From the NCBI GenBank assembly GCA_035527835.1, contig DATKZS010000187.1:1-22440 (forward strand): a stretch of DNA of 22,440 nucleotides, given 5' to 3'. Under the pieces are notes generated by a model. The model saw only the letters and a list, made by a program, of their open reading frames with translations. It searched no databases and was not told the DNA's origin. The position numbers and the translations under genes were made by a program. The stretch comes from DATKZS01 sp035527835 [NCBI: bacterium] (GTDB lineage Bacteria; RBG-13-61-14). This document shows, in pieces, positions 2,796-20,596 of this stretch; position 1 is the stretch's first letter; every line of letters begins with the position of its first letter.

Positions 2796-3677
2796 ATGGT
2801 ACAGGTTGATGTGTTCTGGAGTTTTGCCCTGGGCGCGGGGTTCGCGGGGGCGGCGGCGCGTCAGATTCGGCGTCAGGACAAGGATGGCGGCTACCAGCTG
2901 CTGCATGATCCGTATTTCACGCGGAACCTGATTTACCTGGCCTGCCTGTTCGCGCCGTCGGGCATCTACCTGCTGTGGCAGTTCACGGGCTGGGAGACCA
3001 TGTATTTCTGGACGGGGCAAGTCCAGACGGGCCTGTACCATTACGAACGGGTGCTGCCGGCCTGGCTGGTGGTCCTGTTCGCCATCACCAACGTGACGCA
3101 GGGCATCCTCGGCTACTGGTGGGCATCCGCTTACATCCGGCAGGGCAAGTTCTTCCATGCGCACCTGTTATGGATCGTCGGCTACTTCTGCATGTTCTTC
3201 ATCCTGGTGCACGGCTGGGACGGCCACGGCTACGTGCGCTTCTTCACCAAGGACCTCGCGCAGTGGGACGCGATGTTCGATCCGGCGACCAAGGCCGTGA
3301 CCCATCCGTTCGCGCTGTGGATGGCCCTCAAGTGGGCGGTAACGGCGCCGGTGGCGTGGACACTCTACGCCATGGGCGTGATCATGCTGCCGCTCTTGTT
3401 CTATTGGATGAGCGACTGGGCCAAGCGCGGGTTCGAGCTCGGAGAGGTGGACGAAGAGCGGGCGCGCGCGACCACCGGCAAGGACCTGGTCAACACCGTG
3501 CTGCGCGTGGTCTTCGTGCACACGCTGGGCGCGGCCATCGTCTTCAGCATCCTGATTCACCTGGTCGGCTTCTGGATCGCGCTGGTGATATTCGCCGCGC
3601 TCGTCTATGGCGTGTGGCTGCGGCCCGGCGGACTCTTGCACGGCGAGATCAGACGGATCACGCTGGAAAAGGCCTGA
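2796..3677 (+). CDS. Polytopic membrane protein of unknown family, possible heme or quinone site (293 aa)
   Basis: I do not recognise the family. Hydrophobic segments lie near residues 44-63, 86-109, 122-140, 172-203 (possibly two) and 236-275 (probably two), so about five to seven membrane helices are likely. Histidines sit inside or at the ends of helices: H123 and H139 in one segment, H242 and H255 in another (spacings of 15 and 12 residues between), which resembles bis-His heme b arrangements but is not proof. A strong AGGAGG site at 2785-2790 sets the ATG start. It follows two acyl-CoA dehydrogenase genes and precedes a DUF362 gene by 15 nt. A role in passing electrons from fatty acyl oxidation to the membrane is an inference from context; a transporter or other membrane enzyme is equally possible. 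Confidence 0.85.
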   Translation: MVQVDVFWSFALGAGFAGAAARQIRRQDKDGGYQLLHDPYFTRNLIYLACLFAPSGIYLLWQFTGWETMYFWTGQVQTGLYHYERVLPAWLVVLFAITNVTQGILGYWWASAYIRQGKFFHAHLLWIVGYFCMFFILVHGWDGHGYVRFFTKDLAQWDAMFDPATKAVTHPFALWMALKWAVTAPVAWTLYAMGVIMLPLLFYWMSDWAKRGFELGEVDEERARATTGKDLVNTVLRVVFVHTLGAAIVFSILIHLVGFWIALVIFAALVYGVWLRPGGLLHGEIRRITLEKA

Positions 3678-5231: not shown

Positions 5232-5244
5232 GGGCTGGACAATA

Positions 5245-5331
5245 ATTAACCACAGATGAACACGGATTAACACAGATGATTGCGGATAAAAATTTTTTAT
5301 CCGTGTTCATCTGTTTTCATCTGTGGTTAAT
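5245..5331. repeat. Inverted repeat of the CACAGATG family; likely bidirectional terminator
   Basis: The outer 16 bp, 5245-5260 (ATTAACCACAGATGAA), pair perfectly with 5316-5331. The inner part contains CGGATAAAAA at 5283-5292 facing TTTTTATCCG at 5294-5303, a perfect 10-bp match. Between them, units of 10-11 nt (AACCACAGATG, AACACGGATT, AACACAGATG) are stacked in tandem. It sits in the convergent gap between the DUF362 gene and the MFS gene, where a terminator for both strands is expected, and the inner stem has T tracts on both strands. The right arm runs into the end of the MFS gene and encodes its last four residues and stop. Confidence 0.85.
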
Positions 5332-6669
5332 TTCTTTCCCTGGCGGCTTGCCCGGCTCCGTGGCCATGGAGATGGCGGAGGCGATGTCGGCGGAGAGGCC
5401 TTTTTGTTGGTAAACGGGCAGGATGAGGCGGCGCAGCGCGGGGAGCTTGAGCGAGAACCAGATGGCGGCGATGACGCAGACGCCGCCGCCGAAGAGTACG
5501 GTGTAAGGCGCACCGATGAGGTCGGCCAGTCCGCCGGCCAGCAGGCTCCCGAAGGGGGCCATGCCCATGAACGACATGGTGTAGAAGCTCATGAGCCGGC
5601 CGCGCTTGTCGTCGTCCACCAGCGATTGCAGCACGGTGTTGGACGACGCGAGCTGGACCATCATGCCGAAGCCGGCCAGGAAGAGCACCACGAGCGAGAG
5701 CCAGAACCAGGGCGACAGGGAAAAGGCGATGAGGCCGGAGCCGAAGAGCAGGCACGCCACCACGATCAGGCGGTTCAGGCCGCGGACCCCCTGCCGCGCC
5801 GCCAGGTAGATCGCGCCCCCCAGCGCGCCCGCCCCGGCCGCCGCCATCAGGAACCCGAGACCGTGCGGGCCGCGGTGGAAAACGTCGCGCGCGAACACCG
5901 GCATCAGCACCACGTACGGCATGCCCATCAGGCTCACCACCGAGACCATCAGCAGGATGGCCCGCATCGGCGGAAAACCGAACACGTAGCGCGCGCCCTC
6001 CTTAAGGTCGCCGAGCATCTTTTCGCCGCCGCGCGCCGGAGCGCGGTGCTCGATTTTCATGGCCAGGAGCGCGATCAGCACCGCTACGTAACTCACCGCG
6101 TTGATGAGGAAGCAGGTGCCCTCTCCCGCCGCCGCGATCAGCAGCCCCGCGATGGACGGGCCTATCAGCCGGGCCCCGTTCACCATGGACGAGTTCAGCG
6201 CGATCGCGTTGCCCAGGTCCTCCCGGTCCTCGATCATGTCCACGATGAACGACTGCCGCGCCGGGATGTCCAGCGAATTCACCGTGCCCATGAACAAAGA
6301 CAGCGCGATCAAATGCCAGACCTCGATCCGGCCCGTCAGCATCAGGAACGCCAGCACGAACGCCTGCGCCATGGACAGCGACTGCGTGAAAACCAGGATG
6401 CGGTGCCGGTCCCAACGGTCGGCCAAGACACCCATCACCGGCGCCAGCAAAAAAATCGGGATGCGGCCGGCAAAGCTCACCAGGCCCAGCATCAACTCCG
6501 AGTCCGTGAGCCGGTAAACCAGCCAGCTCATCGCAACCTGCTGCATCCACGTCCCGATCAGCGAGATCCCCTGGCCCCCGAAAAACAACCGGTAGTTCCG
6601 GAAGCGCAGCGTGCGCAGCACCACCCGGAATCCGGCCATCTTCCCGTTAGTTTTTCCAGGCTGAGCCAT
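5317..6669 (-). CDS. MFS transporter, MFS_3 / enterobactin-exporter-like (450 aa)
   Basis: Twelve-helix major facilitator, inner membrane, proton-coupled export of a small molecule being the usual family role. The N-terminal FRNYRLFFGGQGISLIGTW (about 23-41) is typical of the MFS_3 group, and the loop 2-3 signature GVLADRWDRHRIL lies at 80-92. Length matches the family. The ATG at 6669 is preceded by an AGGA some ten bases upstream. It is the last gene of the leftward radical SAM group, separated from it by a gap holding a perfect inverted repeat, so it could export the product of that group; this is inference. The final residues (INHR) and the TGA stop are read from an intergenic-type repeat, so the C-terminus has probably been altered by the repeat. 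Confidence 0.92.
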   Translation of the reverse strand: MAQPGKTNGKMAGFRVVLRTLRFRNYRLFFGGQGISLIGTWMQQVAMSWLVYRLTDSELMLGLVSFAGRIPIFLLAPVMGVLADRWDRHRILVFTQSLSMAQAFVLAFLMLTGRIEVWHLIALSLFMGTVNSLDIPARQSFIVDMIEDREDLGNAIALNSSMVNGARLIGPSIAGLLIAAAGEGTCFLINAVSYVAVLIALLAMKIEHRAPARGGEKMLGDLKEGARYVFGFPPMRAILLMVSVVSLMGMPYVVLMPVFARDVFHRGPHGLGFLMAAAGAGALGGAIYLAARQGVRGLNRLIVVACLLFGSGLIAFSLSPWFWLSLVVLFLAGFGMMVQLASSNTVLQSLVDDDKRGRLMSFYTMSFMGMAPFGSLLAGGLADLIGAPYTVLFGGGVCVIAAIWFSLKLPALRRLILPVYQQKGLSADIASAISMATEPGKPPGKEINHR

Positions 6670-6703
6670 CTCGATTACTTCCTGAACCGCCTTGATAAAT
6701 ATA

Positions 6704-6776
6704 GACAGGATGAACAGGATTTACAGGATAATTCCCCGCGCGTTTTTTTCATCCTGTAAATCCTGTTCATCCTGTC
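6704..6776. repeat. Perfect 26-bp inverted repeat, ACAGGAT family
   Basis: Positions 6704-6729 are the exact reverse complement of 6751-6776, with a 21-nt loop (6730-6750). Each arm is built from 9-nt units beginning ACAGGAT (ACAGGATGA, ACAGGATTT, ACAGGAT). It lies between the stop of the radical SAM gene at 6796 and the start of the MFS gene at 6669, both on the minus strand. It could attenuate transcription into the MFS gene or stabilise mRNA; no function is shown. Confidence 0.95.
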
Positions 6777-6795
6777 AATAAAATCTTCGCTTCTC

Positions 6796-7827
6796 CTACT
6801 CTCCCGCCGTCCAGACCTCGCCGGCCCTCATGTACAGCGCGATGCAGTCGCCGCAGGCCGAGGGCACGGCGCCGGAGCGGATTTCCGCACGGGCGCGGAC
6901 ATAGGCCGGGTCGCGCCAGAGCTCGGGAAGCGGCCGCTCCCGAACGTCGCCGAAGGTCACCGCCAGAGTGCGCTCCAATTTGCCGTCGCGGCGGTACAGC
7001 GCGCACGGATACGCCATGGCGCAACAGACCGAGACCAGGCCCGACGCCGTGATGAAAGGACGCGAGATATCGAACCCGCCGCAATTTCCCGTCCGAGAGC
7101 CGCCGATCTTTTCCGGGCCCACGATCACGAAGCCTTCGGGAGCTTTCTTGCTCGCGCGCGCGAGCGCCTCGGCAAGGCGCCGGTCGTCAAACGCGTTGCC
7201 GTAATAGGCCGCGTGCGTGGCCGAGGCCATGCCGGCGTCCGTGAAGATCCCGGTGAGCTGCTGGAGCACCACGCCCTCGAAGCCGTGGCCGGCAACCATG
7301 GACACGAAGTCGGCAAGCTCGGAGAGGGCCTCCTTGCGCAGCAAAAAGGTCGCAAACAGGTGCGGCTTGCCGGCGCCGGAGAGGTGCGTGAGCGACGCGA
7401 ACTCCTCCATGGCCTTGCGCAGCCGACCGAAGTCGCCGCCCGGACGCGCCGCCTTGTACGGCCGCTCATTGGCCGCGTCCACCGACACGCACACCGTGTC
7501 CAGCCCGAAGCGGATGATCTTCTTCATGGCGTCGGGCGTGAGTAACTGTCCGTTCGTCGTCATGGTGAGACGGCCGGAAAAATGGCGGCGAATGAGACGG
7601 AGGATGTCGAAGAGCGCCGGGTTCAGGAGCGGCTCGCCCCAGCCGGTAAGATCAATCGAGGTGAGCCCGGCCAGGTAAGGCGCCACGGCCTCCACCACCG
7701 CGAGCGGCATCAGCGTTGGCTCCGGACGCTCCGAATAAGACCGCAGGAAGCACAGCGGACAGCGCAGGCCGCAGGCGGCGCTGGTCTCCAGCACCAGGCC
7801 GGACATGGTATCGGGGTCTTTAGTCAA
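6796..7827 (-). CDS. Radical SAM protein with SPASM-like C-terminus (343 aa)
   Basis: The [4Fe-4S]/SAM motif CGLRCPLC gives C19, C23 and C26, and GWGEP at 62-66 is the SAM-contacting glycine region. Strands LTMTTNG and VCVSVDA follow in the usual barrel order. The C-terminal third has GNCGG, then SVCCAMAYPC, a FGDV..LPELW stretch and ACGDC, a pattern like SPASM domains that bind extra FeS clusters. The first codon is read as TTG at 7827 because GGAG at 7835-7838 lies seven bases upstream; an ATG at 7806, after seven codons, lacks a good site. Substrate is unknown: SPASM enzymes act on peptides, sugars or other small molecules, and no precursor peptide gene is seen nearby. Confidence 0.92.
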   Translation of the reverse strand: MTKDPDTMSGLVLETSAACGLRCPLCFLRSYSERPEPTLMPLAVVEAVAPYLAGLTSIDLTGWGEPLLNPALFDILRLIRRHFSGRLTMTTNGQLLTPDAMKKIIRFGLDTVCVSVDAANERPYKAARPGGDFGRLRKAMEEFASLTHLSGAGKPHLFATFLLRKEALSELADFVSMVAGHGFEGVVLQQLTGIFTDAGMASATHAAYYGNAFDDRRLAEALARASKKAPEGFVIVGPEKIGGSRTGNCGGFDISRPFITASGLVSVCCAMAYPCALYRRDGKLERTLAVTFGDVRERPLPELWRDPAYVRARAEIRSGAVPSACGDCIALYMRAGEVWTAGE

Positions 7828-7834
7828 ATTACAG

Positions 7835-7838
7835 CTCC
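7835..7838 (-). promoter_or_regulatory. Ribosome-binding site supporting a TTG start
   Basis: GGAG on the minus strand lies seven bases before TTG at 7827. The alternative ATG at 7806 has no comparable site, which is why the longer start was chosen. Confidence 0.6.
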
Positions 7839-7854
7839 ATTGAATGAAGACTTT

Positions 7855-7941
7855 TAGTATCTAGTATTTAGCAATCATGCGGGCGCATGGAAATGATGAA
7901 CGCCTCTTCCGCTAGATACTAAATACTAGATACTAGATACT
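7855..7941. repeat. Heptamer-built inverted repeat, AGATACT family
   Basis: Positions 7855-7871 are the exact reverse complement of 7919-7935 (17 bp), with a 47-nt loop. The right side, 7914-7941, is four tandem heptamers (AGATACT, AAATACT, AGATACT, AGATACT); the left side holds two of them in the opposite orientation. It fills most of the gap between the radical SAM genes ending at 7956 and starting at 7827 on the minus strand. It is AT-rich against GC-rich flanks. Confidence 0.92.
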
Positions 7942-7955
7942 TTCTCCTGATTCTC

Positions 7956-9011
7956 TCACTCCCATCCGCCCCTCACCCACTCCCCCGCGGGCATCGAGTC
8001 GCCGAGCGAGCAGGAGAGCATGCAGGTGGGGCAGAACTCGCGGGCGATGCGGCGGCGCATGTCGCGGGCCTCGCCTCCCGACCAGAGCTTTTCCACGTCC
8101 TCTTTGAGCACGTTTTTCGGGAAGAGGTCGGAGGCCGCGGGGCAGGGGAAGAGGCTGCCGTCGGCGTTGATGTTGATGGTGGTGAAGAGGGTGAGGCAGC
8201 GGCGCGGCCTTGTTCCTCCTCTCAGCACCTCCTTGATGATGCCGTATTGATAGCGGAAGGGCGCGGGGCTCTCGGGCGCGATGCGGTCAAGGAAAGCGAT
8301 CACCCTGCGCCTGTCGTCGTCGCTGAACGCGAGCGCGGCCCCCATGCTCTGGTTCCGGTAAATTTGGTCGGTGACCAGGACCACGTTGAACATGAGGGGC
8401 AGGCCGCGGCCCCTGGCAAAGGCGAAGAGGTCGTCGAGCCCGGCCACGTTGCCCGGCTGGATCACGCAGTTGAGTCCGATCTCGATGCGGGCGGCGGGGT
8501 TGTCGTCGCGCAGTTTGACGAGTCGGCTCAGCGTCTCGGCCACGGCGGCAAAGGCACCGGGCCGGCCGCGGACCTGGTCGTGGATCGCGCCCGTTCCGTC
8601 CAGCGACAGGTGCGCGAACAGGCCGTGGCGGGCGGGATCGAGGGCCCCGCGCATGGCTTTGACGCGGGCGATTACGCGGTCGGGGTCGAGTCCGTTGGTG
8701 GCGAGGCCGAGGGTGCAGAGCGCGGAGAGGGATGAGGCCATGGCGGCGGCGAGCTCGCCGAGGTCGTCGCGGAGCGTGGGCTCGCCGCCGGTGATCCACG
8801 CGGTCTCCACCTTCTGGAACAGCGCGCCCGCGAGCACGCGGCCGAGGTCCGACGCGCCCAGCTCCACGCCCGTTGGCTTCTCCTTCCAGATCCCGCAGTG
8901 GCCGCAATGCCCGTCGCAGCGGAGCGTCGCGTTGAAGCACAGGTATCGGGGCCGGGGCAGGAACAAGCGCCCCGCCGCGTAATAATTCACCAGCCGTTCC
9001 AGGTCATTCAT
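7956..9011 (-). CDS. Radical SAM protein (351 aa)
   Basis: CDGHCGHC places the cluster cysteines at C32, C36 and C39, and GGEPTL begins at 75. A barrel strand ending LATNG and an AHLSLDG strand follow in order. The C-terminal region has a NINADGSLFPCP segment followed by CPTCMLSC, which looks like an auxiliary cluster-binding (SPASM or twitch-like) tail. It belongs to the MoaA/PqqE-like broad group by eye, with no specific substrate indicated. Its ATG overlaps the stop of the upstream gene by eight bases (ATGAATGA), so it is translationally coupled to the radical SAM protein at 9004-10110. Together with the two genes upstream it forms a run of three tightly packed radical SAM genes. Confidence 0.93.
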   Translation of the reverse strand: MNDLERLVNYYAAGRLFLPRPRYLCFNATLRCDGHCGHCGIWKEKPTGVELGASDLGRVLAGALFQKVETAWITGGEPTLRDDLGELAAAMASSLSALCTLGLATNGLDPDRVIARVKAMRGALDPARHGLFAHLSLDGTGAIHDQVRGRPGAFAAVAETLSRLVKLRDDNPAARIEIGLNCVIQPGNVAGLDDLFAFARGRGLPLMFNVVLVTDQIYRNQSMGAALAFSDDDRRRVIAFLDRIAPESPAPFRYQYGIIKEVLRGGTRPRRCLTLFTTININADGSLFPCPAASDLFPKNVLKEDVEKLWSGGEARDMRRRIAREFCPTCMLSCSLGDSMPAGEWVRGGWE

Positions 9012-10110
9012 TGCTCTGCATGGCCTTGTGGAATTCCATGTTCTCGTACACGTACCCGCACTCGCCGCACAGGCAGCCTTCGAGCGCTCCCCCGTTTTCG
9101 CGGATGCCCATCATCTGGTCGCGCTGCCCCTGGTAGCGCTCGGAGTGCCAGATTTCCACGAATGAGCGCTCCATGAGGTTGCCCATGACCGGCTCGCAGT
9201 GGCAGCAGGGCCGGACGTCGCCGTTCGGGTAGATGGCGGCGAAGGAATAGCCGGAGTAGCAGGGGGCTCGCCGGTACAGATTGCCCGAGTCCATCACTCC
9301 ACCGTCGCTGGCGGTCCCGGCATAGCCCAGGAAAAAGCCCTCGGCACGCGCCCGTTCGCCCAGGCGGCCGATCTGGTCGAGGAAGCGCTGGAACCGGCCG
9401 GGCTCGACGCGCAACCCGCGGTTCACGGCCTCTTGGTCAAGCACGATCTCCATGAGCGGAACATAGGTGACCGACTCGACCCCGGTCCTTTTCCCCAGCT
9501 CGAACAGGGCCTCGACGTCATCCGCTGATGACCGGGTCAGCACCACCGACAGGGTGACGCGCGGCCGGGCCGAGCCGATGCGCTTGCGCTCCTTCATCAC
9601 CGTCTCGATGCCGGCGACGATCTCATCGAACGTGTCGCCGCCCGCGGCCGGGTTCTGTTCGCGGTAGGAGCGCGCGGTCCCGGCGTTGAGGCTGACGTGG
9701 AGATCGTGGAGCCGGGCGTGGACCAGGAAGGCGCCGAATTTTTTGAGCCTGGTCCCGTTGGTCACGATGCTGAGCTCGGCTTCGGGGAAGGAGCGGGCGA
9801 ACTGGAAGACCATGGGCACGAGGTGGGAGTAGAGCAGCGGCTCGCCGCCGGTGATGGTGAGTCGTTTGAGTCCGCCGAGGTAATAGAGGTCATCGGCCAG
9901 GCGGTCGAGCAGTCCGCCGGGCAGATCGCCGCCGGCGGCGAAGCGGGGCGTGTGCTTCATGAGGCGCGGGGGGATGGCGTGGAGCGGGCAGAAGCAACAG
10001 GCGGCGTTGCAGCGGGAGGTGGGGATGATCTGGACGTCGGCCGGTCCGCGCAGGGGCCGGCGCGCGCGGATCGAGCCGCTTATGGACCAGATGGTCTCGT
10101 ACGAAAACAT
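9004..10110 (-). CDS. Radical SAM protein with SPASM-like C-terminus (368 aa)
   Basis: CNAACCFC gives cluster ligands C34, C38 and C41, with an extra Cys at 39; GGEP is at 88-91. SIVTNGTRL and LHVSLNAG are the next barrel strands. The C-terminal part has APCYSGYSFAAIYPNGDVRPCCHC, then LCGECG near the end, a clear SPASM-like arrangement for one or two extra clusters. The ATG at 10110 shares a base with the stop of the preceding B12-type radical SAM gene and has GGAG eight bases upstream. Substrate unknown. The IYPNGDVRPCC segment resembles those of SPASM enzymes, which act on peptide or small-molecule substrates, so it does not distinguish between them. Confidence 0.93.
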   Translation of the reverse strand: MFSYETIWSISGSIRARRPLRGPADVQIIPTSRCNAACCFCPLHAIPPRLMKHTPRFAAGGDLPGGLLDRLADDLYYLGGLKRLTITGGEPLLYSHLVPMVFQFARSFPEAELSIVTNGTRLKKFGAFLVHARLHDLHVSLNAGTARSYREQNPAAGGDTFDEIVAGIETVMKERKRIGSARPRVTLSVVLTRSSADDVEALFELGKRTGVESVTYVPLMEIVLDQEAVNRGLRVEPGRFQRFLDQIGRLGERARAEGFFLGYAGTASDGGVMDSGNLYRRAPCYSGYSFAAIYPNGDVRPCCHCEPVMGNLMERSFVEIWHSERYQGQRDQMMGIRENGGALEGCLCGECGYVYENMEFHKAMQSNE

Positions 10111-11888
10111 CAGGGAATCTCCATGATCAGAGGATAGCCGAAGCCCACGGTGTTGTGGTCGGGATGCGCGGCGTCAACGGTCCGGGTCTCGAATTCGAGG
10201 TAGACCTTTTTGCCGCCCCAGTCAAGGAGCGGGACCGTGAATTCGTGCCAGCCCCGGTGCGCCGGGACGCGCTTGGGGTCCAGCGTCTCCTGGAACACCT
10301 CCCGCATCGTGCGCGCGAACCGCCCGACCCGGACCGTGAAGACCACTCCATCGCCCGCGCCCCGCTCCAGCACCGCGGGGTGCATGGCGAGCGAGAAAGT
10401 CAGCTCCGACCGCCGGGGCAGTCTCACCCGGAACCGCGCGCGCGAAGGCGGATGCAGGCGCAGCACCCGACGCGCGTCGTCCCCGATCCAGAAGTAGTCC
10501 TCCCCCACGAAGATCGGGTCCGGCGTCTCCACCCGGGCCTCCCCGAGCCGCTCCACGAAATCGTATTCCGGCAGGGTCCGCCCCAGCTTGCGCCTGAGCT
10601 TCTTCGCGGTGTGGCACTGGTCGCGCAGACGGATCAGCCGCTGGTGCATCTCGCGGATCTCTTCCGGCGGGAACTCCGGAAGCGTGAGCGCGGAGTCCGG
10701 CTGGAAGTACCCGTCGCGCGTCTCCCCCGTCAGCACCCCCCGCTCCTTGGCCACCTGGTAAAGCCGAGTCCCCGGATACGGGTTGAACACCGACACCTGC
10801 ATGTGGTCCGGGCACAGACGCTCGTTCAACCGGTACGTCTCCTCCGCGTCCTCTTTGGTCTCGCCCGGCAGGCCCACCATGTTGAACGCCCACGTCTCCA
10901 GGCCCGCGGCCTCCGCCTCCGCGAACACCCGGACGATCCTTTCCTCCGACATCGGCCGTCCCATGATCTCCCGCCGCGTGCGCTCGCACCCCGACTCCAC
11001 CCCCACCCGCACCATGTCGCAGCCCGCGGCCCGCGCCGTCTGGAGCATCCCGCCGTCAACCGTCTCCGCGTGCACGTTGATGTCAAAGGGCTGAGCGAAT
11101 TCCTTCGGATACCGCGCGCAGAACTCGTCGAACCACTCGCGCTTGAGCGTGAAGATGTCGTCGTTGAAGCGCCATTTCCTGACGTCGTACTCCGCCAGCA
11201 GCGCGCGCATCTCCGCGAGCACGTGGCCGACGCTCCGCCAGCGCACGTATTTGCCCTTGCCGCGGTAAAGCTCGGACAGGCCCTTGTTGGCGCAATAGGT
11301 GCAGCCGTAGGGGCAGCCGCGGCCCGAGAGCATCGAGCATTTGCCGCCCTGCCGCCTCAGGATCTCGTCGAAATTGAAGGACTCGCGGTCCACGAACGGC
11401 AGCGCGTCCAGATCCTGAATCAGCGGCCGCACCGGGTTCTTGATCACCTCGCCCCCGCGCTTTACCCACAGGTTCGCGGTCCCTGAAAAATCGCGGCCCG
11501 CTTCCATCGCGTCCGCGAGCTCCACCATCGCCCCCTCGCCTTCGCCAACGCAGAGCATGTCAAAGCACGGCTCGGTAATGGTCTCGTCGGCCGCCAGCGT
11601 CGCATGCATGCCGCCGATGATCACGGGCAGCCCGAGCGCGTCCTTGATCCAACCCGCGTAGCGCCGGGCCCGCGGGTACTGGTTAGTCACCGAGGAAATG
11701 GCCGCGAGGCCCGGACCTAGCTCGCGCGCCCGCTCCACGATCTCCTCTTCCGACATCTCGTCGTGCGCGTAAATCAGGCGCGCGTCGTGGCCGGAGCGCT
11801 TCAACACCGCGATCAGCGTGCCCACCCCGTGCTGATAGTCGGGAGGCAGCATGGTGCCGACATCAGGATATATGAACAATATTCTCAA
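10110..11888 (-). CDS. B12-binding-type radical SAM protein with C-terminal beta domain (592 aa)
   Basis: Three parts are visible. Residues 1-140 form a Rossmann-like cobalamin-binding-type domain (RILFIYPDVG at 2-11, VIIGGMHATL at 89-98, CVGEGEGA at 113-120). Residues about 180-430 are the radical SAM barrel, with CPYGCTYC giving C192, C196 and C199, and GLPGET at 339-344. Residues about 474-590 are a beta-rich domain (DGVVFTVRV, then DPKRVPAHRGWHEFTVPL, then KVYLEFETR) also recognisable in the GT2 gene upstream. Such enzymes often methylate or rearrange unactivated carbons, for example on lipids or natural products. The TTG start at 11888 is favoured because the domain begins immediately with its first strand and GGAG lies five bases upstream. 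It overlaps the next gene by one base. Confidence 0.93.
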   Translation of the reverse strand: MRILFIYPDVGTMLPPDYQHGVGTLIAVLKRSGHDARLIYAHDEMSEEEIVERARELGPGLAAISSVTNQYPRARRYAGWIKDALGLPVIIGGMHATLAADETITEPCFDMLCVGEGEGAMVELADAMEAGRDFSGTANLWVKRGGEVIKNPVRPLIQDLDALPFVDRESFNFDEILRRQGGKCSMLSGRGCPYGCTYCANKGLSELYRGKGKYVRWRSVGHVLAEMRALLAEYDVRKWRFNDDIFTLKREWFDEFCARYPKEFAQPFDINVHAETVDGGMLQTARAAGCDMVRVGVESGCERTRREIMGRPMSEERIVRVFAEAEAAGLETWAFNMVGLPGETKEDAEETYRLNERLCPDHMQVSVFNPYPGTRLYQVAKERGVLTGETRDGYFQPDSALTLPEFPPEEIREMHQRLIRLRDQCHTAKKLRRKLGRTLPEYDFVERLGEARVETPDPIFVGEDYFWIGDDARRVLRLHPPSRARFRVRLPRRSELTFSLAMHPAVLERGAGDGVVFTVRVGRFARTMREVFQETLDPKRVPAHRGWHEFTVPLLDWGGKKVYLEFETRTVDAAHPDHNTVGFGYPLIMEIP

Positions 11889-12051: not shown

Positions 12052-13491
12052 TCACGGATGCCGAAGCGGCTCGCCCGTGACCCGGTTCTTCGCCCACGAG
12101 AGAACGCCGTTGTACAGCCGGTCGCCGGCCGACAGCGCGTCGGTCACGATGCGCGGCGCTCCCCACCCGGCCCAGCCGTAGTCGGTGTTTTCCGAGCGCG
12201 TGGCCAACATCACGGTGACGCGCTTTCCCGCGAAGCGGGCGAGGTCCACCGATGCCTCCACCCAGCGCGGTTCCTCGCCGCGAGCGCCGGGCCCGATTTC
12301 CCGGTGCCACAGCGCCTCGGAGCCAACCATCACCACGAAGAGCACCGGGTCCCTGCGCTGGCCCCGCGCGGCCGGATTGATGGCGGCGCCGAACTCGAGC
12401 CGCGCGCCGGGCGGCACGTGGAGCCGGGCCGCGGCCGCGGAGTTCGGGTTCATGAACAGCGTGGGCCGGGTGTCGGCGCCGAGGGTGAAGCGGGTCCGCA
12501 GAATGCGCGTGCTTTTCTCGACCATGGGCAGCGTGGCCCGGGTCATGGCGCGGGCCAGGTCGTGCGCCGCGTGCCTGTCCACGGGATCGCCGGCGGCCAG
12601 GTAATTTCCAGCCATCTCGGCGGCGAGCCGCGCCGAGTTCCAGGCCAGGAGCGTGAGCCGCGCCGTCAACGGCCGGCCGCCGCGCGCGATGGCCCTGGCC
12701 TGGTCGCGCCAAATGCGGGGGTAGCCGCGGAGCAGAGCGCCCACACCATCAAAGTATAACACGCCGAACCAGCGCTTCACCACGGCCTGGTCGAGCCAGC
12801 CGCGGCGGAAGGCGTGCGCCAGCGTGTCCGCGTGCGAGTGCCGAACCACCGAGCGCGGCTCGAACACGATGCGGTGTCCGGAGAGCAACACCTCCCGCGC
12901 CCACACCAGGTCCTCCGCCCAGTCAACCGCCGGGATCGGAAAAGTATCCTGCAGCGAGCGCCGCCGGCAGCACGACACGTCGTCGAACTCGCAAAAATAA
13001 AAGCGCTCCTCCGGCGCCAGCGCCCAGAAGTCCGTCGCGGGCGCGATTTCCTTGACCACGCGCTCGCGGCCGGAAGACGCCCGGTGTCCGAGCCGGTGCG
13101 CCTCGATCGGGCCGGCGCCCTCCCGCGGCACCTGCCTGGAGTATGCGCCGGCCACGCGGCCATCGGAGGCCACGGCGTCCACCAATGCCGCGAGCCAGTC
13201 CCGGTCGGCGGGGACCGCGTCGGCCACCAGGTAGACCAGGAACTCGCCCCGCGCCTGCATCGAGGCCATCTGCCGCGTGCGGCCGTGCTGGAACTCCGCC
13301 CGCGGGATCTCGATCACGCGCGCGCCGAACGACTTCGCGACCTCCGCGGTCCGGTCGCGCGAGCCGGAGTCAACCACGATGAGCTCGTAATCGAACGGCG
13401 CCCGCTGGGAACGCACGGCTTCGAGGCAGCGCTGGAGATTGCGCTCCTCGTCCCGCGCCACGATGATGATGGAAGCGAGCGGGGTGGTCAT
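12052..13491 (-). CDS. GT2 glycosyltransferase, rhamnosyltransferase-like, with C-terminal beta domain (479 aa)
   Basis: Family 2 glycosyltransferase expected to move a sugar from a nucleotide donor at the inner face of the membrane. The GT-A fold is visible: SIIIVARDEERN at 7-18, ELIVVDSGSRDRT at 36-48, HGRTRQMA at 69-76, the metal-binding DxD-like region ADAVP at 90-94, and WAEDLVWAREVLLSGH at 191-206 with acidic E193 and D194. The HGRTRQ and RHSH (217-220) stretches resemble rhamnosyltransferases. Residues about 342-449 form an extra beta-rich domain (DPVLFVVMV, RWVEASVDLARFAGK, DYGWAGWGAPRI) matching the tail of the B12-type radical SAM protein. Its ATG overlaps the stop of the upstream radical SAM gene by four bases. 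Donor and acceptor are not known. Confidence 0.92.
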   Translation of the reverse strand: MTTPLASIIIVARDEERNLQRCLEAVRSQRAPFDYELIVVDSGSRDRTAEVAKSFGARVIEIPRAEFQHGRTRQMASMQARGEFLVYLVADAVPADRDWLAALVDAVASDGRVAGAYSRQVPREGAGPIEAHRLGHRASSGRERVVKEIAPATDFWALAPEERFYFCEFDDVSCCRRRSLQDTFPIPAVDWAEDLVWAREVLLSGHRIVFEPRSVVRHSHADTLAHAFRRGWLDQAVVKRWFGVLYFDGVGALLRGYPRIWRDQARAIARGGRPLTARLTLLAWNSARLAAEMAGNYLAAGDPVDRHAAHDLARAMTRATLPMVEKSTRILRTRFTLGADTRPTLFMNPNSAAAARLHVPPGARLEFGAAINPAARGQRRDPVLFVVMVGSEALWHREIGPGARGEEPRWVEASVDLARFAGKRVTVMLATRSENTDYGWAGWGAPRIVTDALSAGDRLYNGVLSWAKNRVTGEPLRHP

Positions 13492-14579
13492 GGCGTGAGC
13501 AGGTCCTCGTTAAAGTGGTTGGCGCGGTTCTCGTGGATGCACAGGGAGCAGAACTCGGGGAAGGCGCCCTGGAAAAGGGCGCGGCGGAGCAGGCGGTAGA
13601 GCGGGCCGTTCCAGATTTCGTCGAACGGCTGGGCGCCGAGGTCGCCCATCGGCTCGATCATGCCGCAGCAGGTGAACACGCGGCCGTCCACCCTGACGCC
13701 GAAGGTGAGCCACGGCTCGGCGCAGGTCTGCGTGAGCGCCGGGCCGGCGGCGAGGTAGTGGGAGGAAAAGACCAGGCCGAGGCGGGCGGCCTCGCGGGCG
13801 GCCTCGCGCACGTCCTCGACCACGTTCTCGGCCTCCACGGCGTGCTCGTGATAAAACGCGAAGTATTCCGAGTCGAAGCAGAACACTGGGGTCAGCGGCT
13901 CGACCACCAGGTGGTTTATTCCGAGCGACGCGGCGAGGGGCACGGCCCGGGTGATCTCCGTAGCGTTGAGGTCGGAGACGGTGAACTGCATGTTGAGGAA
14001 GGGCCGCTCGGAGCCCGCGAGTTTTTTCAGCTCGGCCAGGCGCCGGATGTTGGCGGTGACGCGCCCGAAATCGGCGGGCACGCGGATTTTCGCGTAGGTC
14101 TCGGCGGTGGCGCCGTCAATGGAAAAGGAGATGGTGTCCACCCCGGACGCGATCATCTCGCGGGCCCTGGCCTCGTCGAGCAGGGTGGCGTTGGAGTTGA
14201 AGTGGACCTCGATGGCGTGGCGCTTCAAGCGGCGCACGATGTCGAAGAATTTCGGGTGCAAGAGCGGCTCTCCGCCGCCGGAGAGGAAGGCCCGGGCCAC
14301 GTAGGGCAGGACGGATTCGATTTTGGGCAGCAGCTCGAGGTCGAACATCTCGGTGCGGTAGGGCTCGCGGGGGAGCCCGATGGTGGTGGGGCACATGGGG
14401 CAGCGCAGGTTGCACACGGCGGTGGCTTCGAGATAGAGGACGGCGGGATACGACTCCAGGTCCTCCCGGCCATGGGCCGCGGCCTCCCGGAGCTTCACCA
14501 GGTTCTGCTCGCGCGCGGCGCGTCCGGCCTTGTTTTCCGGCATGATCACCATGTTTTTGATTCCCGGCGCGCGGCCCAA
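13488..14579 (-). CDS. Radical SAM protein with SPASM domain (up to 363 aa)
   Basis: CNLRCPMC places cluster ligands at C56, C60 and C63 when counted from the TTG at 14579, and GGGEP is at 101-105. VHFNSNATLL and ISFSIDGA follow as barrel strands. The C-terminus has TCAEPWLTFGV, VFTCCGM, a PFDEIWNG stretch and FCSLCIHEN, the usual SPASM pattern. The first gene after a good promoter at 14626-14655, it heads the leftward group. The start is uncertain: TTG at 14579 has a weak site, while ATG at 14552 has GGGA nine bases upstream and would give 354 residues; the missing residues are not part of the fold. SPASM proteins of this shape modify peptides or other small molecules; no precursor peptide is visible. 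Confidence 0.92.
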   Translation of the reverse strand: MGRAPGIKNMVIMPENKAGRAAREQNLVKLREAAAHGREDLESYPAVLYLEATAVCNLRCPMCPTTIGLPREPYRTEMFDLELLPKIESVLPYVARAFLSGGGEPLLHPKFFDIVRRLKRHAIEVHFNSNATLLDEARAREMIASGVDTISFSIDGATAETYAKIRVPADFGRVTANIRRLAELKKLAGSERPFLNMQFTVSDLNATEITRAVPLAASLGINHLVVEPLTPVFCFDSEYFAFYHEHAVEAENVVEDVREAAREAARLGLVFSSHYLAAGPALTQTCAEPWLTFGVRVDGRVFTCCGMIEPMGDLGAQPFDEIWNGPLYRLLRRALFQGAFPEFCSLCIHENRANHFNEDLLTP

Positions 14580-16897: not shown

Positions 16898-16985
16898 TAA
16901 CCACGGATGAACACGGATAAACACTGATTTTCTTTTTCGCAACATCATCAATTGATCCGTGTTGATCCGTGTTCATCTGTGGTTA
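16898..16985. repeat. Second copy of the CACAGATG-family inverted repeat
   Basis: The arm at 16898-16931 matches the reverse complement of 16952-16985 with a few mismatches, leaving a 20-nt loop. It uses the same unit as the repeat at 5245-5331 (CCACGGATGAACACGGAT here, CCACAGATGAACACGGAT there). It separates the sulfatase-fold gene from the protease gene. Between it and the protease start I see no further gene; the palindrome GTCATGAC at 17073-17080 is the only other notable sequence. Confidence 0.9.
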
Positions 16986-17105: not shown

Positions 17106-20105
17106 ATGGCGCAGGCGACGGAAAGGATCATTGCATTGGCCAAGCGGGCGGCGCGGGCGGAGGGCTCGGCGGAGCTTGGCGCGCGCCATTTCCTGATCGC
17201 GGCTTGCCTTGACGCCGAGGCCCGGAGCTACGTGGGCAAGGAGCTTAACGGGGGCGCCGAGCCGGCGCTGCCGCAGGGCTGGCGGGCGGCGGTCGCGCGG
17301 GTGGCGGGAGAGCCGGCGGTGGCGGACAAGATCCCGCTGGGCGCCGGGTTCAAGGAATTGTTCCAGGAGCTTTACTCTTCCCGCCGCGGTTTTCCGCCGT
17401 TTTCCGTTCTCATCCGGCGTCTGCTTCTGGCTTCGGATCCGGCGGTGGATGAGTTCAAGGAGGCTAATCCGGGTCTCAAAGCGGCCGCGGGTCCGGAGAC
17501 GCTGCGTCCGCTTTCGCGGCTGGGCCGGCTGGTGGACGAGGTTTCGGCTTTGCGCAATAAGCTGCTGAGCCGGGTGATCGGCCAGGCGAAGGCCATCGAG
17601 CGGATCGCGGACGCTCTGTTCGCGGCGGGCCTATATCCGGCGGAGAGCTTGGGTCCTCCCCGCGGGAGTCTCTTGTTCCTGGGCCCTCCCGGCGTGGGCA
17701 AGAACTTCGCGGCGGAGCTGATCGGGGAGAGCCTGTGCGCGGACGACCCGGAGGGGTTTCTGCGCCTGGACATGTCCGCGTACTCCGACCCGTCGGCCCA
17801 TCGCCTTTTGACCGGCTTTGAGCCGAGCTTCGCGGGAGCGAGGCCCGGGCTGCTCACCGGCCACGTCAGCGATCACCCCGCCGCCGTGGTGCTGGTTGAG
17901 AACCTGGAGCAGGCCCACGCCTCGGCGCAGAGCCTGTTCGCGCGTGTCCTCGACAGCGGGATGGTGGAAGACAAGTTCCTGAAGAAGAAAATCCCCTTCG
18001 GCAAGACGGTATTCATTTTCAGCACCGGGCTGGGCGGCGAGAGCTACGAGGCCGAGGGCCGGGCCGGGGCCGGCGCGGCGGGCGCGGGGCCGGCGGCGCT
18101 TGCGATGTTAAGGGAGGCCCGCGACCCGTTGAGCGGGCAGCCCGCGATTCTGCCCGAGCTTTGCTCCAAGCTGGCCCGCTGCTTTCCGGCGGTGTTCCGT
18201 CCACTTCCGGCGGGGCGGCTGAAGGACGTGGCCCGGCATGCGGTGGATGAGCTGGACCTTGAGTTCCTGCGTCGCCTCGGGATCAGGGTGACGGTCTCCG
18301 ACCCGCGCCTGCTCACGCTGCTTCTGCTCCGGCTGGGCCCGGACCTCGACGCCTGCGGGCTTGCCGCCGGGGTCCCGCGGATCATCAAGGACGGGTTCCG
18401 CGACGCTCTGATCCGGCACCGGAGCGGGCTTACGGATGGCGACTCCGCGTTCGAGCGTCTGAAGTCTCTGGAGCTGCGCCCGCCGGAGGGCGAGGCCGGA
18501 GAGTTTTTTAAGCACATTGATGAAAACGATGGGCCTCCGGGCGCGGGACCGGAGGGCACGGAAGCACGGAGGCGCGATCGGTTCGTTGAGTCCTGGTTCC
18601 GGTCGAGGAAGGCGGTGAGCTTCGAGTGGTCGTCCGAGCTCAAGTTCGAGGACAAGCGGGGCGTAATCATTCTTCGTCCGGCAAATATCGTGGTGCGCAC
18701 GGCGGTTTCGGGGCGGGACCTGGGCGCGCGGCTTTCCATGAGCGGAGTGCCCACGGAGCGCTTTTCCGCGGTGGCGGGCGCGGGCGAGGCCAAGCGGCGG
18801 CTCCGTGAGATCATCCAGTGGATGCGCGCTCCCGAGACCATCCGCTCTCTGGGGGTGGACCTGCCCACCGGCATCCTTTTGGAAGGCCCGTCGGGAAACG
18901 GCAAGACGCTGCTCGCCCGCGCGGTGGCCGGGGAGGCGGGGCTGCCGTTCTTCGCGGCCAACGCCACCGACTTCGCGTCCAAGTGGGTGGGCGAGAGCGA
19001 GCGGAACGTGCGCGAGCTGTTCGAGCGCGCCGCGGCCTATGCGCCGTCCATCCTGTTCCTGGACGAGCTCGACGCCATCGGCTCGCGGCGCGACCTGGAG
19101 AGCTCCGCGGTCCACGACCAGGTGCTGACCCAGCTCCTGGTGTGCATGGACGGGTTCGCGAGGCGGGAGAGGCCGGTCTTCTTCCTGGCCGCCACCAACC
19201 GCGCCGACCTGCTCGACCCGGCGCTCAAGCGGCCCGGCCGCTTCGATTACGTAATCTTCATCGGCGACCTCGACCTAGGCGCCCGCGCCGAGCTCTTGCG
19301 CCTCAAGACCGCGGCCATCCCGCTCGCGCCCGACGTTGACCTGGCCGCGTTGGCCCGCGCCTGCTGGGGATTCTCCGGGGCCATGCTGGCGCAGGCGGCC
19401 AAGGAGGCGGCGGTGCTGGCGTTCCGCGACGCGCCGGCCGGGTCTGTACCGGGCGGAACTGGGCCGGGCGGCATCCGGGCGGGCATGAAGCATTTCCGGG
19501 AGGCCGTCACCAACGTGCGCCACGGCCTCGCCCGCGACGGCGCGCGGCCCACCGGCGACGACTTGAGGCTGACGGCGTATCACGAGGCCGGGCATGCCCT
19601 GATCGCGGAGAGCGGGCGGCCGGGGAGCGTCACCCAGGCCACGGTCCTGCCGCGCGGCCGCGCGCTGGGGCTGGTGGATTCCCTGCCGGAGGGGGAGGAC
19701 CATGCGTGGACCATGCGGGACCTGCTGCTCCGCGTGCGCGTCGCTTTGGCCGGCCGGTGCGCCGAGATCATCGCGTTCGGGGAGGACATGGTCTCGGCGG
19801 GCTCATGCCGGGACCTGGAGACGGCGACGAGGGCCGCGGCGCTGGCCGTGACCCGCTTCGGCATGTCGCGGGAGATCGGCCCGCTCTCCCTGCCCGAGCT
19901 GGAGCGTGCGCTTCCCGGCTCCGGGGCGGGGGAGCGCGCGGGCCGCGAGGTCGAGCGCATGGTGCGCGAGCAGGAAAAAGCGGTCCTTGCGACGCTCGGC
20001 GCGAACCGGGCCGCGCTGGACGAGCTTGCGGAATTGCTCATGGAGCGCGAGACCGTTGACGGAGCCGAGGTCGCGCGGGTGGCGGAAAGGATCGGGGAAA
20101 AATAA
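17106..20105 (+). CDS. Chimeric AAA+ protease: Clp-like N-terminus and dead ClpB-type motor fused to CDC48-like AAA+ and M41 peptidase (999 aa)
   Basis: ATP-dependent zinc protease, predicted soluble: no transmembrane helix is visible, unlike FtsH. Residues 1-120 resemble the paired-helix Clp N domain. Residues about 155-440 align with the second AAA+ domain of ClpB (GQAKAIERIADAL, GPPGVGKN at 193-200, LRLDMSAYSDP), but six ATP-handling positions differ: N200 for Thr, E265 and N266 for the Walker B Asp-Glu, G308 for sensor-1 Asn, K355 for the Arg finger, V423 for sensor-2 Arg. A beta-rich linker spans about 455-545. Residues 550-770 are an intact AAA+ module: GPSGNGKT 594-601, D653 E654, N698, R709, R712, pore loop KWVGES. 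M41 follows: HEAGH 826-830 and third zinc ligand D903. The start has GGGAG about nine bases upstream. The downstream gene overlaps by one base. Confidence 0.9.
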   Translation: MAQATERIIALAKRAARAEGSAELGARHFLIAACLDAEARSYVGKELNGGAEPALPQGWRAAVARVAGEPAVADKIPLGAGFKELFQELYSSRRGFPPFSVLIRRLLLASDPAVDEFKEANPGLKAAAGPETLRPLSRLGRLVDEVSALRNKLLSRVIGQAKAIERIADALFAAGLYPAESLGPPRGSLLFLGPPGVGKNFAAELIGESLCADDPEGFLRLDMSAYSDPSAHRLLTGFEPSFAGARPGLLTGHVSDHPAAVVLVENLEQAHASAQSLFARVLDSGMVEDKFLKKKIPFGKTVFIFSTGLGGESYEAEGRAGAGAAGAGPAALAMLREARDPLSGQPAILPELCSKLARCFPAVFRPLPAGRLKDVARHAVDELDLEFLRRLGIRVTVSDPRLLTLLLLRLGPDLDACGLAAGVPRIIKDGFRDALIRHRSGLTDGDSAFERLKSLELRPPEGEAGEFFKHIDENDGPPGAGPEGTEARRRDRFVESWFRSRKAVSFEWSSELKFEDKRGVIILRPANIVVRTAVSGRDLGARLSMSGVPTERFSAVAGAGEAKRRLREIIQWMRAPETIRSLGVDLPTGILLEGPSGNGKTLLARAVAGEAGLPFFAANATDFASKWVGESERNVRELFERAAAYAPSILFLDELDAIGSRRDLESSAVHDQVLTQLLVCMDGFARRERPVFFLAATNRADLLDPALKRPGRFDYVIFIGDLDLGARAELLRLKTAAIPLAPDVDLAALARACWGFSGAMLAQAAKEAAVLAFRDAPAGSVPGGTGPGGIRAGMKHFREAVTNVRHGLARDGARPTGDDLRLTAYHEAGHALIAESGRPGSVTQATVLPRGRALGLVDSLPEGEDHAWTMRDLLLRVRVALAGRCAEIIAFGEDMVSAGSCRDLETATRAAALAVTRFGMSREIGPLSLPELERALPGSGAGERAGREVERMVREQEKAVLATLGANRAALDELAELLMERETVDGAEVARVAERIGEK

Positions 20106-20596
20106 TGGCGGCCACACTGGACCAGATCGCCGGCTTTTTCGGCAACCGCAACATCACCTTCCGGCGCGACGACGCGCGGGGATGGCTGCTCGTGCCCTTT
20201 CAATATGAGCCGCTTAGCCCGTTGATCGTGGCGGTGGCGCTGGAGGAGGACGGGAGGTTCTTGAAGATTTTCGCGCCGCGGCTCATGCAATACGGCGACG
20301 GCCCGCACAAGCTCGCGCTGATGCAGACGCTGCTGCACACGTCGTGGGAGTCCAAGATGCTGCAATGGGAGTACGACCCGATAGACGGCGAGGTCCGGGC
20401 CATGGTCGAGTTCCCGATCGAGGACGCGGAGCTCACCGAGGCCCAGTTTTTCCGCGCCTTCGACGGCTTGAGCCGGCTCGCCATGCTCTTTTATCCGCGG
20501 CTCAAAAGCGTGATCGAGACGGGGTCCGATCCCGGCCGCGCGGAGGCCGTTCCGGAATCCACCCTGCCGCCCGGAAGCCCGCCGGACGCCCTGTGA
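20105..20596 (+). CDS. YbjN-like small protein, possible protease partner (163 aa)
   Basis: A small acidic-aromatic protein of alternating strand and helix pattern: LDQIAGFFGNRNITFRR, then LIVAVALEEDGRFLKIFAPRL, then KLALMQTLLHTSWESKM, then VRAMVEFPIEDAELTEAQFF. This order, with an N-terminal helix, a five-strand sheet and a C-terminal helix, resembles the YbjN family, whose fold is related to type III secretion chaperones. The match is by eye and the last 25 residues are low complexity and probably disordered. Its ATG shares a base with the protease stop codon (TAATG), so it is translated with it. A role as adaptor, chaperone or substrate-recognition subunit of the protease is inferred only from this coupling. 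Confidence 0.75.
   Translation: MAATLDQIAGFFGNRNITFRRDDARGWLLVPFQYEPLSPLIVAVALEEDGRFLKIFAPRLMQYGDGPHKLALMQTLLHTSWESKMLQWEYDPIDGEVRAMVEFPIEDAELTEAQFFRAFDGLSRLAMLFYPRLKSVIETGSDPGRAEAVPESTLPPGSPPDAL

Follow-up and report, generated by a model that had tools for sequence, protein, structure and literature searches.

A Clp-D2-type AAA+ module with lost catalytic motifs precedes a complete FtsH-type protease unit in a single bacterial protein

Introduction

FtsH joins an AAA module, its lid and an M41 peptidase in that order (TIGR01241, PF01434), and a review of it gives an N-terminal transmembrane domain as typical (PMC9020784). Here we describe a gene in a stretch of 22,440 nucleotides (the window, contig DATKZS010000187.1 of assembly GCA_035527835.1, from the bacterium DATKZS01 sp035527835) that encodes a 999-amino-acid protein with two AAA+ modules, AAA1 and AAA2, followed by an M41 peptidase. 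With FtsH it shares the order of AAA, lid and M41, the motor and zinc residues that were checked, the predicted fold and the side of the tree on which AAA2 falls. It differs from FtsH in having no anchor by hydropathy, a pore loop of the Cdc48 type and an extra Clp-type ring, and the NCBIfam FtsH model TIGR01241 covers residues 549-988 at 375 bits, below its curated cut-off of 600.

Other systems bear comparison. AAA1 resembles the D2 module of class 1 Clp/Hsp100 proteins (ClpA/B/C) and the single-ring CLPB/Skd3 in sequence and predicted fold, and the N-terminus is possibly Clp-N-like; however, AAA1 is without Walker B, sensor 1 and arginine finger, there is no Clp D1 (the stretch ahead of AAA1 measures only some 145 residues and has no Pfam AAA match), and the peptidase is fused and of the M41 type, not ClpP. 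Cdc48/p97 carries two Cdc48-type AAA modules, whereas here AAA1 is Clp D2-type and AAA2 splits from 18 Cdc48-like modules. Lastly, a Klebsiella plasmid (L006) encodes a Clp (clpK) and ftsH side by side, but these are distinct genes that a small third one keeps apart, the Clp having two GKT Walker A motifs and the FtsH being anchored.

Results

The open reading frame at 17106-20105 on the forward strand is a single intact gene, and the Pfam matches of its product, all four above curated cut-offs, fall in the order AAA_2 (residues 185-318, E 9e-19), AAA (590-720, 1e-43), AAA_lid_3 (743-775) and Peptidase_M41 (821-992, 3e-35). From N- to C-terminus the protein comprises a weakly Clp-N-like region, a Clp/Hsp100 D2-type AAA+ module, a second AAA+ module of the FtsH type and an M41 peptidase. 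A preliminary description of this DNA, made from the sequence alone, had reported one 999-residue frame joining several modules in a non-standard order, and both the exact frame and the order hold. It had also named a frameshift as a possible source of error; we see no sign of one, because codon usage resembles that of the other window genes in frame 1 only, in all ten bins of 100 codons, and GC content at third codon positions stays between 0.77 and 0.99 along the gene. The features are as follows.

17106..20105, forward strand: whole gene, 999 amino acids, ATG to TAA (open reading frame, Pfam, codon usage)
17106..17540, forward strand: N-terminal helical region, residues 1-145, weakly Clp-N-like (profile alignment, model)
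17541..18425, forward strand: AAA1, Clp/Hsp100 D2-type, residues about 146-440, catalytic motifs lost (Pfam AAA_2, Clp D2 alignments, fold match)
17682..17705, forward strand: AAA1 Walker A GPPGVGKN, K199 kept, T200 changed to N (motif, alignment)
17886..17909, forward strand: AAA1 Walker B VVLVENLE, D265 changed to E and E266 to N (motif, alignment)
18426..18740, forward strand: linker, residues 441-545 (low-confidence model; no Pfam match)
18741..19430, forward strand: AAA2, FtsH-type, residues 546-775, motifs intact (Pfam AAA, TIGR01241, trees)
18885..18908, forward strand: AAA2 Walker A GPSGNGKT (motif, alignment)
18981..19001, forward strand: AAA2 pore loop KWVGESE, FVGVGA in FtsH (motif, alignment)
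19062..19067, forward strand: AAA2 Walker B, D653 and E654 (motif, alignment)
19566..20081, forward strand: Peptidase M41 domain, residues 821-992 (Pfam; FtsH chains aligned over 537-995)
19581..19595, forward strand: HEAGH, zinc ligands H826 and H830, catalytic E827 (motif, alignment)
19812..19814, forward strand: D903, third zinc ligand (alignment with FtsH)

The back end of the protein carries a complete FtsH-type apparatus. Compared with 17 FtsHs from viral contigs (columns at least 90% conserved), AAA2 and M41 retain 125 of 215 conserved columns, including every catalytic residue checked: K600, T601, D653, E654, N698, R709, R712, H826, E827, H830 and D903 are all unchanged. The zinc set of M41 (HEAGH at 826-830 plus D903) is present; a second AAA+ module and an M41 peptidase with all zinc ligands had been claimed earlier, and both hold. 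The pore loop of AAA2 reads KWVGESE, as in Cdc48-type modules recovered by our genome pattern scans, in place of the FtsH form FVGVGA. Among FtsH frames that had not been chosen by pore motif, FVGVG was present in 47/47 and 10/10, and F, Y or I followed by VGVG in all six divergent ones. Ten viral-contig FtsHs (L007-L070) that an HE[A/M]GH pattern missed all have HEGGH.

Membrane anchors were judged by hydropathy, as means over 19 residues, with the anchors that precede Walker A in FtsHs serving as yardstick. These reached 2.16-2.75 in 47 FtsH frames and 1.78-3.21 in six divergent FtsHs; two FtsH frames cut at the N-terminus gave 1.59 (L379) and 1.28 (L370) over the whole frame. Over its whole length the 999-residue protein has no stretch at the hydropathy of an FtsH anchor: its maximum is 1.46, at residue 873 within M41, and the maximum ahead of AAA2 is 1.35, at residue 402. 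The expected membrane helices had been said to be absent, and the hydropathy values bear this out.

Phylogenetic trees were then used to place AAA2. In a tree of 45 AAA modules it grouped with 26 FtsHs against 18 Cdc48-like modules at a support of 100/97, and when 11 pore-loop columns were left out this split was found at 100/99. Most rows had themselves been picked by pore motif, with [FY]VGVG used for 20 FtsHs and K[WYF]xGESE for the Cdc48-like rows. This tree differs from an earlier one of 42 rows in that L139, L215 and L236 (the latter two long Cdc48-like rows) were dropped and six FtsHs were added. The position of AAA2 on the FtsH side, as judged from aligned sequences, stands. In both trees AAA2 also lay outside all FtsHs, with the FtsH clade at 100/99 (20 FtsH rows) and 99/98 (26 rows), and in the second tree approximately unbiased tests, on FtsH groups picked after the tree was seen, gave p values of 0.03 for nesting AAA2 beside L389 and L369 and of 0.014 for nesting it beside L390. 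We do not retain a deep-branching position outside all FtsHs, as its support fell from 99/98 to 74/87, with 70% of bootstrap trees, once the 11 pore-loop columns were removed.

Structure prediction points the same way for the back end. In the full-length model, 31 of 46 ten-residue blocks after residue 540 have a predicted local distance difference test score (pLDDT) of at least 90, and the modelled back end matches FtsH over 442 residues of the integrative model 9a2p (Z 35.6) and over 424 residues of the crystal structure 3kds (Z 34.9). Because the alignment behind the model was built from FtsH and Cdc48 relatives, this fold match confirms rather than discovers. One alignment that mixed Clp and FtsH rows was discarded, the Clp rows having fallen on AAA2. 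A role in defence was considered and set aside: AAA2 matches PADLOC IetA at 119 bits and the NCBIfam anti-phage IteA model at 117 bits (cut-off 510), which we read as general AAA similarity.

The front ring presents a different picture. A ClpB-D2-like module had been proposed here, and Pfam AAA_2, alignments with Clp D2s and the fold match agree with it; the degeneracy of its motifs is a new addition. Residues 141-415 are 29-32% identical to three Clp D2s (two that we label ClpC-like and one annotated as ClpK). With 32 Clp D2s from viral contigs as reference (columns at least 90% conserved), AAA1 retains 43 of 95 conserved columns, G193, G196, V197, G198 and K199 among them, and shows the changes T200N, D265E, E266N, N308G, N354S and R355K. 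The alignment thus shows AAA1 to be without the Walker A threonine, the two Walker B acids, sensor 1 and the arginine finger, and because of these losses it is most likely a non-hydrolysing cap. The arginine of the GAR motif, R417, is also lost, depending on the alignment, and the pore tyrosine is replaced by phenylalanine (Y242F), next to V243A. The model of the front end (residues 1-545) averages a pLDDT of 69; within it, the blocks of ten residues from 201 to 300 score 92-96, and AAA1 matches Skd3 (7ttr; Z 24.1, root-mean-square deviation 3.8, 288 residues) and ClpB NBD2 (4lj7; Z 24.1, 3.4, 282 residues). By alignment and predicted fold AAA1 is a Clp D2 module whose hydrolytic motifs are gone, and the domain order is better put as a dead Clp-D2 ring ahead of a complete FtsH AAA-M41 unit.

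Residues 1-145 have no Pfam match even at E 10, Clp_N (PF02861) included, and against the PDB they gave a single weak and irrelevant match. A profile of 21 Clp N-domains (hhalign) aligned with residues 4-96 at a score of 26.3 (P 9e-4, probability only 23%), a score reached by 0/150 shuffles (best 21.4) and 0/99 natural segments (best 17.4), and residues 1-140 are modelled as all-helical at pLDDT 49-73. Of the 'Clp-N-like region' reported earlier, there remains a weak profile similarity above that of shuffled and natural segments, and we describe the N-terminus as weakly Clp-N-like; with no Pfam match and that profile probability, Clp_N was rejected as an established domain. For the linker, no Pfam match was obtained with residues 441-549.

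Relatives of the same architecture were sought in several collections. Protein searches matched 3186 of 72,556 plasmid records and 271 of 50,697 phage records, in none of which one place covered 80% of the query. The two-piece plasmid matches, among those listed, fall on clpK and ftsH (separate genes in the one that was opened), and the single-piece FtsH matches listed are 39-45% identical. A pattern scan that covered one genome for each of 84,980 species with exact 8-mers turned up no relative of the front end. Other genome patterns led, among the matches listed, to 80 loci that were kept, mostly archaeal and Cdc48-like, and in none of the 80 did a single frame combine a Walker motif with HE[A/M/S]xH; the motif scan of 180 loci sought HE[A/M/S]xH, a pattern that HEGGH would escape. 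Full-length searches of 603 genomes (sets of 6, 301 and 296), in groups reachable from the genomes G001-G004 and with two candidates scored per genome in the 301 and 296 sets, revealed no protein of the same order at 1e-95 or 1e-92, thresholds at which a relative as distant as the L139 protein described below would be missed. In a front-end search of 148 genomes, four of the best matches listed and seven long frames were inspected, and all were Clp-type. L094 and L149 were dismissed as M41 candidates: their HEAIH comes before the Walker motif and does not resemble M41.

One of the 180 loci encodes a protein that resembles the back end. At L139:4134-6227 (viral contig IMGVR_UViG_3300027811_000003; L088 is the same place), a 697-amino-acid AAA-M41 protein shares with ours the KWVGESE loop, an AAA module with a HEAGH M41 domain and the lack of anchor-like hydropathy (maximum 1.34), and its AAA-M41 part is 27% identical. 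It differs in its N-terminal 250 residues, for which neither a Pfam match nor significant similarity to the Clp-like front end was obtained, and in the first tree its AAA module was placed among the Cdc48-like rows, on a branch both long and uncertain. We do not regard it as an orthologue, given that only the AAA-M41 part aligns significantly and that its AAA is placed elsewhere in the tree; it suggests that anchorless AAA-M41 proteins exist elsewhere, the architecture not being the same. The L139 gene lies close to a gene that looks, by eye, like radical SAM.

The preliminary description had looked for support to the same order in several genomes; none turned up in the plasmids, phages, species scans or 603 genomes. 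It had also allowed that the architecture might be described and named already, and the open-licence literature that we searched yielded no description of this domain order. Its suggestion of an undescribed soluble protease holds as to the missing anchor, the FtsH-type unit and the non-standard order; as to a class, no second protein of the same order was found, so a protein family is not shown.

Immediately downstream, one further gene may be functionally linked to the protease:

20105..20596, forward strand: 163-amino-acid remote YbjN-like protein, candidate partner (1-base overlap of its start with the protease stop; weak homologues)

Its product has no direct family match, YbjN (PF10722) included. 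Weak homologues turned up on the Synechocystis plasmid pSYLA (E 2e-6); of 400 genomes around G002 eight have one, and of 395 around G001 none. Among these eight, the two that were scanned, L383 and L384, both match PF10722 at 40 bits (cut-off 22). On pSYLA (L380:4669-8023), two adjacent hypothetical proteins look YbjN-like by eye, the shorter being the match to the 163-residue protein; neither, the large neighbour included, matches Pfam at 0.01. A conserved partnership of the YbjN-like gene with Clp or FtsH found no support in the homologue loci weighed below, in the large Synechocystis neighbour or in the genomes around G001.

Further out, a flippase-like LPG_synthase_TM gene lies downstream of the protease gene and a sulfatase-domain gene upstream (Pfam). 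Four inverted repeats with arms of 28-41 nucleotides lie in, or at the edge of, intergenic gaps (2703-2778, 5237-5339, 6700-6780 and 16898-16985); those at 5237 and 16898 share GATGAACACGGAT, and the 16898 copy is just upstream of the protease gene. Elsewhere in the window, a 293-amino-acid membrane-like protein is encoded at 2796-3677, between acyl-CoA dehydrogenase and DUF362 genes; it has no Pfam match, and as a marker (2796-3674) it matched nothing in plasmids or in sets of 198 and 101 genomes. On both sides of a glycosyltransferase gene lie five radical SAM genes (6796-11888 and 13488-14579), of which one includes a B12-binding domain.

Discussion

Taken together, our results describe a real gene that encodes a new variant of FtsH-type protease, known from one sequence, whose function we infer. 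The analysis itself shows the reading frame, the domains and their residues, a hydropathy without anchor-like stretches and the modelled folds of both AAA+ modules and M41; the hexamer, solubility, the loss of ATPase in AAA1, the adaptor and each functional role are inferred, the mechanism resting on established FtsH and Clp biology. On balance we think it probable that the protein is a cytosolic, single-chain ATP-dependent zinc protease in which an FtsH-like motor feeds M41 and a dead Clp ring replaces the anchor. The chain would probably form a hexamer with two stacked AAA+ rings, of which the AAA2 ring would be the sole ATP-driven motor: its KWVGESE loop would grip the substrate and thread it into the M41 chamber, where HEAGH and D903 would hold zinc. 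The non-hydrolysing AAA1 ring would act as an assembly platform and entry collar, most likely holding the hexamer together in place of the membrane segment of FtsH, and the Clp-N-like domain on top of it would gather substrate. The product of the overlapping YbjN-like gene may serve the protease as an adaptor or as a chaperone for its substrates; a role as adaptor is plausible, no more.

Several observations weigh against this interpretation. (i) Judged by sequence, AAA2 is roughly as near to Cdc48 modules as it is to FtsH: the top PDB rows in phmmer are Cdc48-type chains, in which the scores of two modules add up, ranked above the FtsH chains; the best single Cdc48 module scores 173 bits and the FtsH chains 284 bits (AAA plus M41). 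(ii) The full model, with a predicted template modelling score of 0.50, does not fix how the two rings sit relative to each other, and the alignments used for modelling were small (33 and 30 rows) and drawn from Clp-, FtsH- or Cdc48-like loci, which favours those folds. (iii) The searches made gave no second example of the architecture. (iv) The neighbouring gene is tied to YbjN weakly and in two steps, first to the homologues L383 and L384 (E 6e-5 and 8e-5) and from these through Pfam, and 0/8 homologue loci (2.1-3.3 kb) have a Walker or HEAGH frame alongside. (v) K199 is retained, and AAA1 may therefore still bind nucleotide.

The last point leads to another explanation, namely that AAA1 is a nucleotide sensor that binds ATP without hydrolysing it and so gates or assembles the complex. 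Some other AAA+ proteins with two rings have one that is inactive yet binds nucleotide, and the Walker A glycines are kept in AAA1 along with K199, but AAA1 lacks T200, the two Walker B acids, sensor 1 and the arginine finger, and we hold a sensor to be rather unlikely. It seems less likely still that the fused unfoldase-protease is not soluble in practice and is held at the membrane, by a partner or by docking on a lipid surface, as a regulator of the neighbouring cell-surface genes: such docking would suit the LPG_synthase_TM and sulfatase-domain genes on either side, yet genomic neighbours are weak evidence and the protein itself has no anchor-like hydrophobic stretch. An assembly join, or a recent and non-functional fusion of clp and ftsH fragments, would account for the single copy and for the failure to find a relative of the same order. 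We consider it very improbable in light of the single frame with window-like codon use in ten bins and of the distance of both halves from the relatives seen (29-32% to Clp D2s, 39-45% among the FtsH matches listed); moreover, the losses in AAA1 hit catalytic motifs and leave the fold, which is not what one would expect had two ordinary genes just been joined.

Beyond the preferred interpretation of a cytosolic protease with a dead Clp ring, we tentatively propose, at somewhat less than even chances, a class of its own among AAA+ zinc proteases, soluble and with two rings, in which a retired Clp ring replaces the anchor, an FtsH lineage keeps a Cdc48-type pore loop and possibly split off before today's membrane FtsHs, and a YbjN-like protein serves as dedicated adaptor. 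If a dead Clp ring does take over from the anchor, the anchor of FtsH would be replaceable and the protein would be a naturally soluble full-length FtsH-type enzyme, as well as a clear instance of an unfoldase ring put to new use as a passive component of a protease. The unusual KWVGESE pore loop bears on the origin of FtsH from Cdc48-like ATPases.

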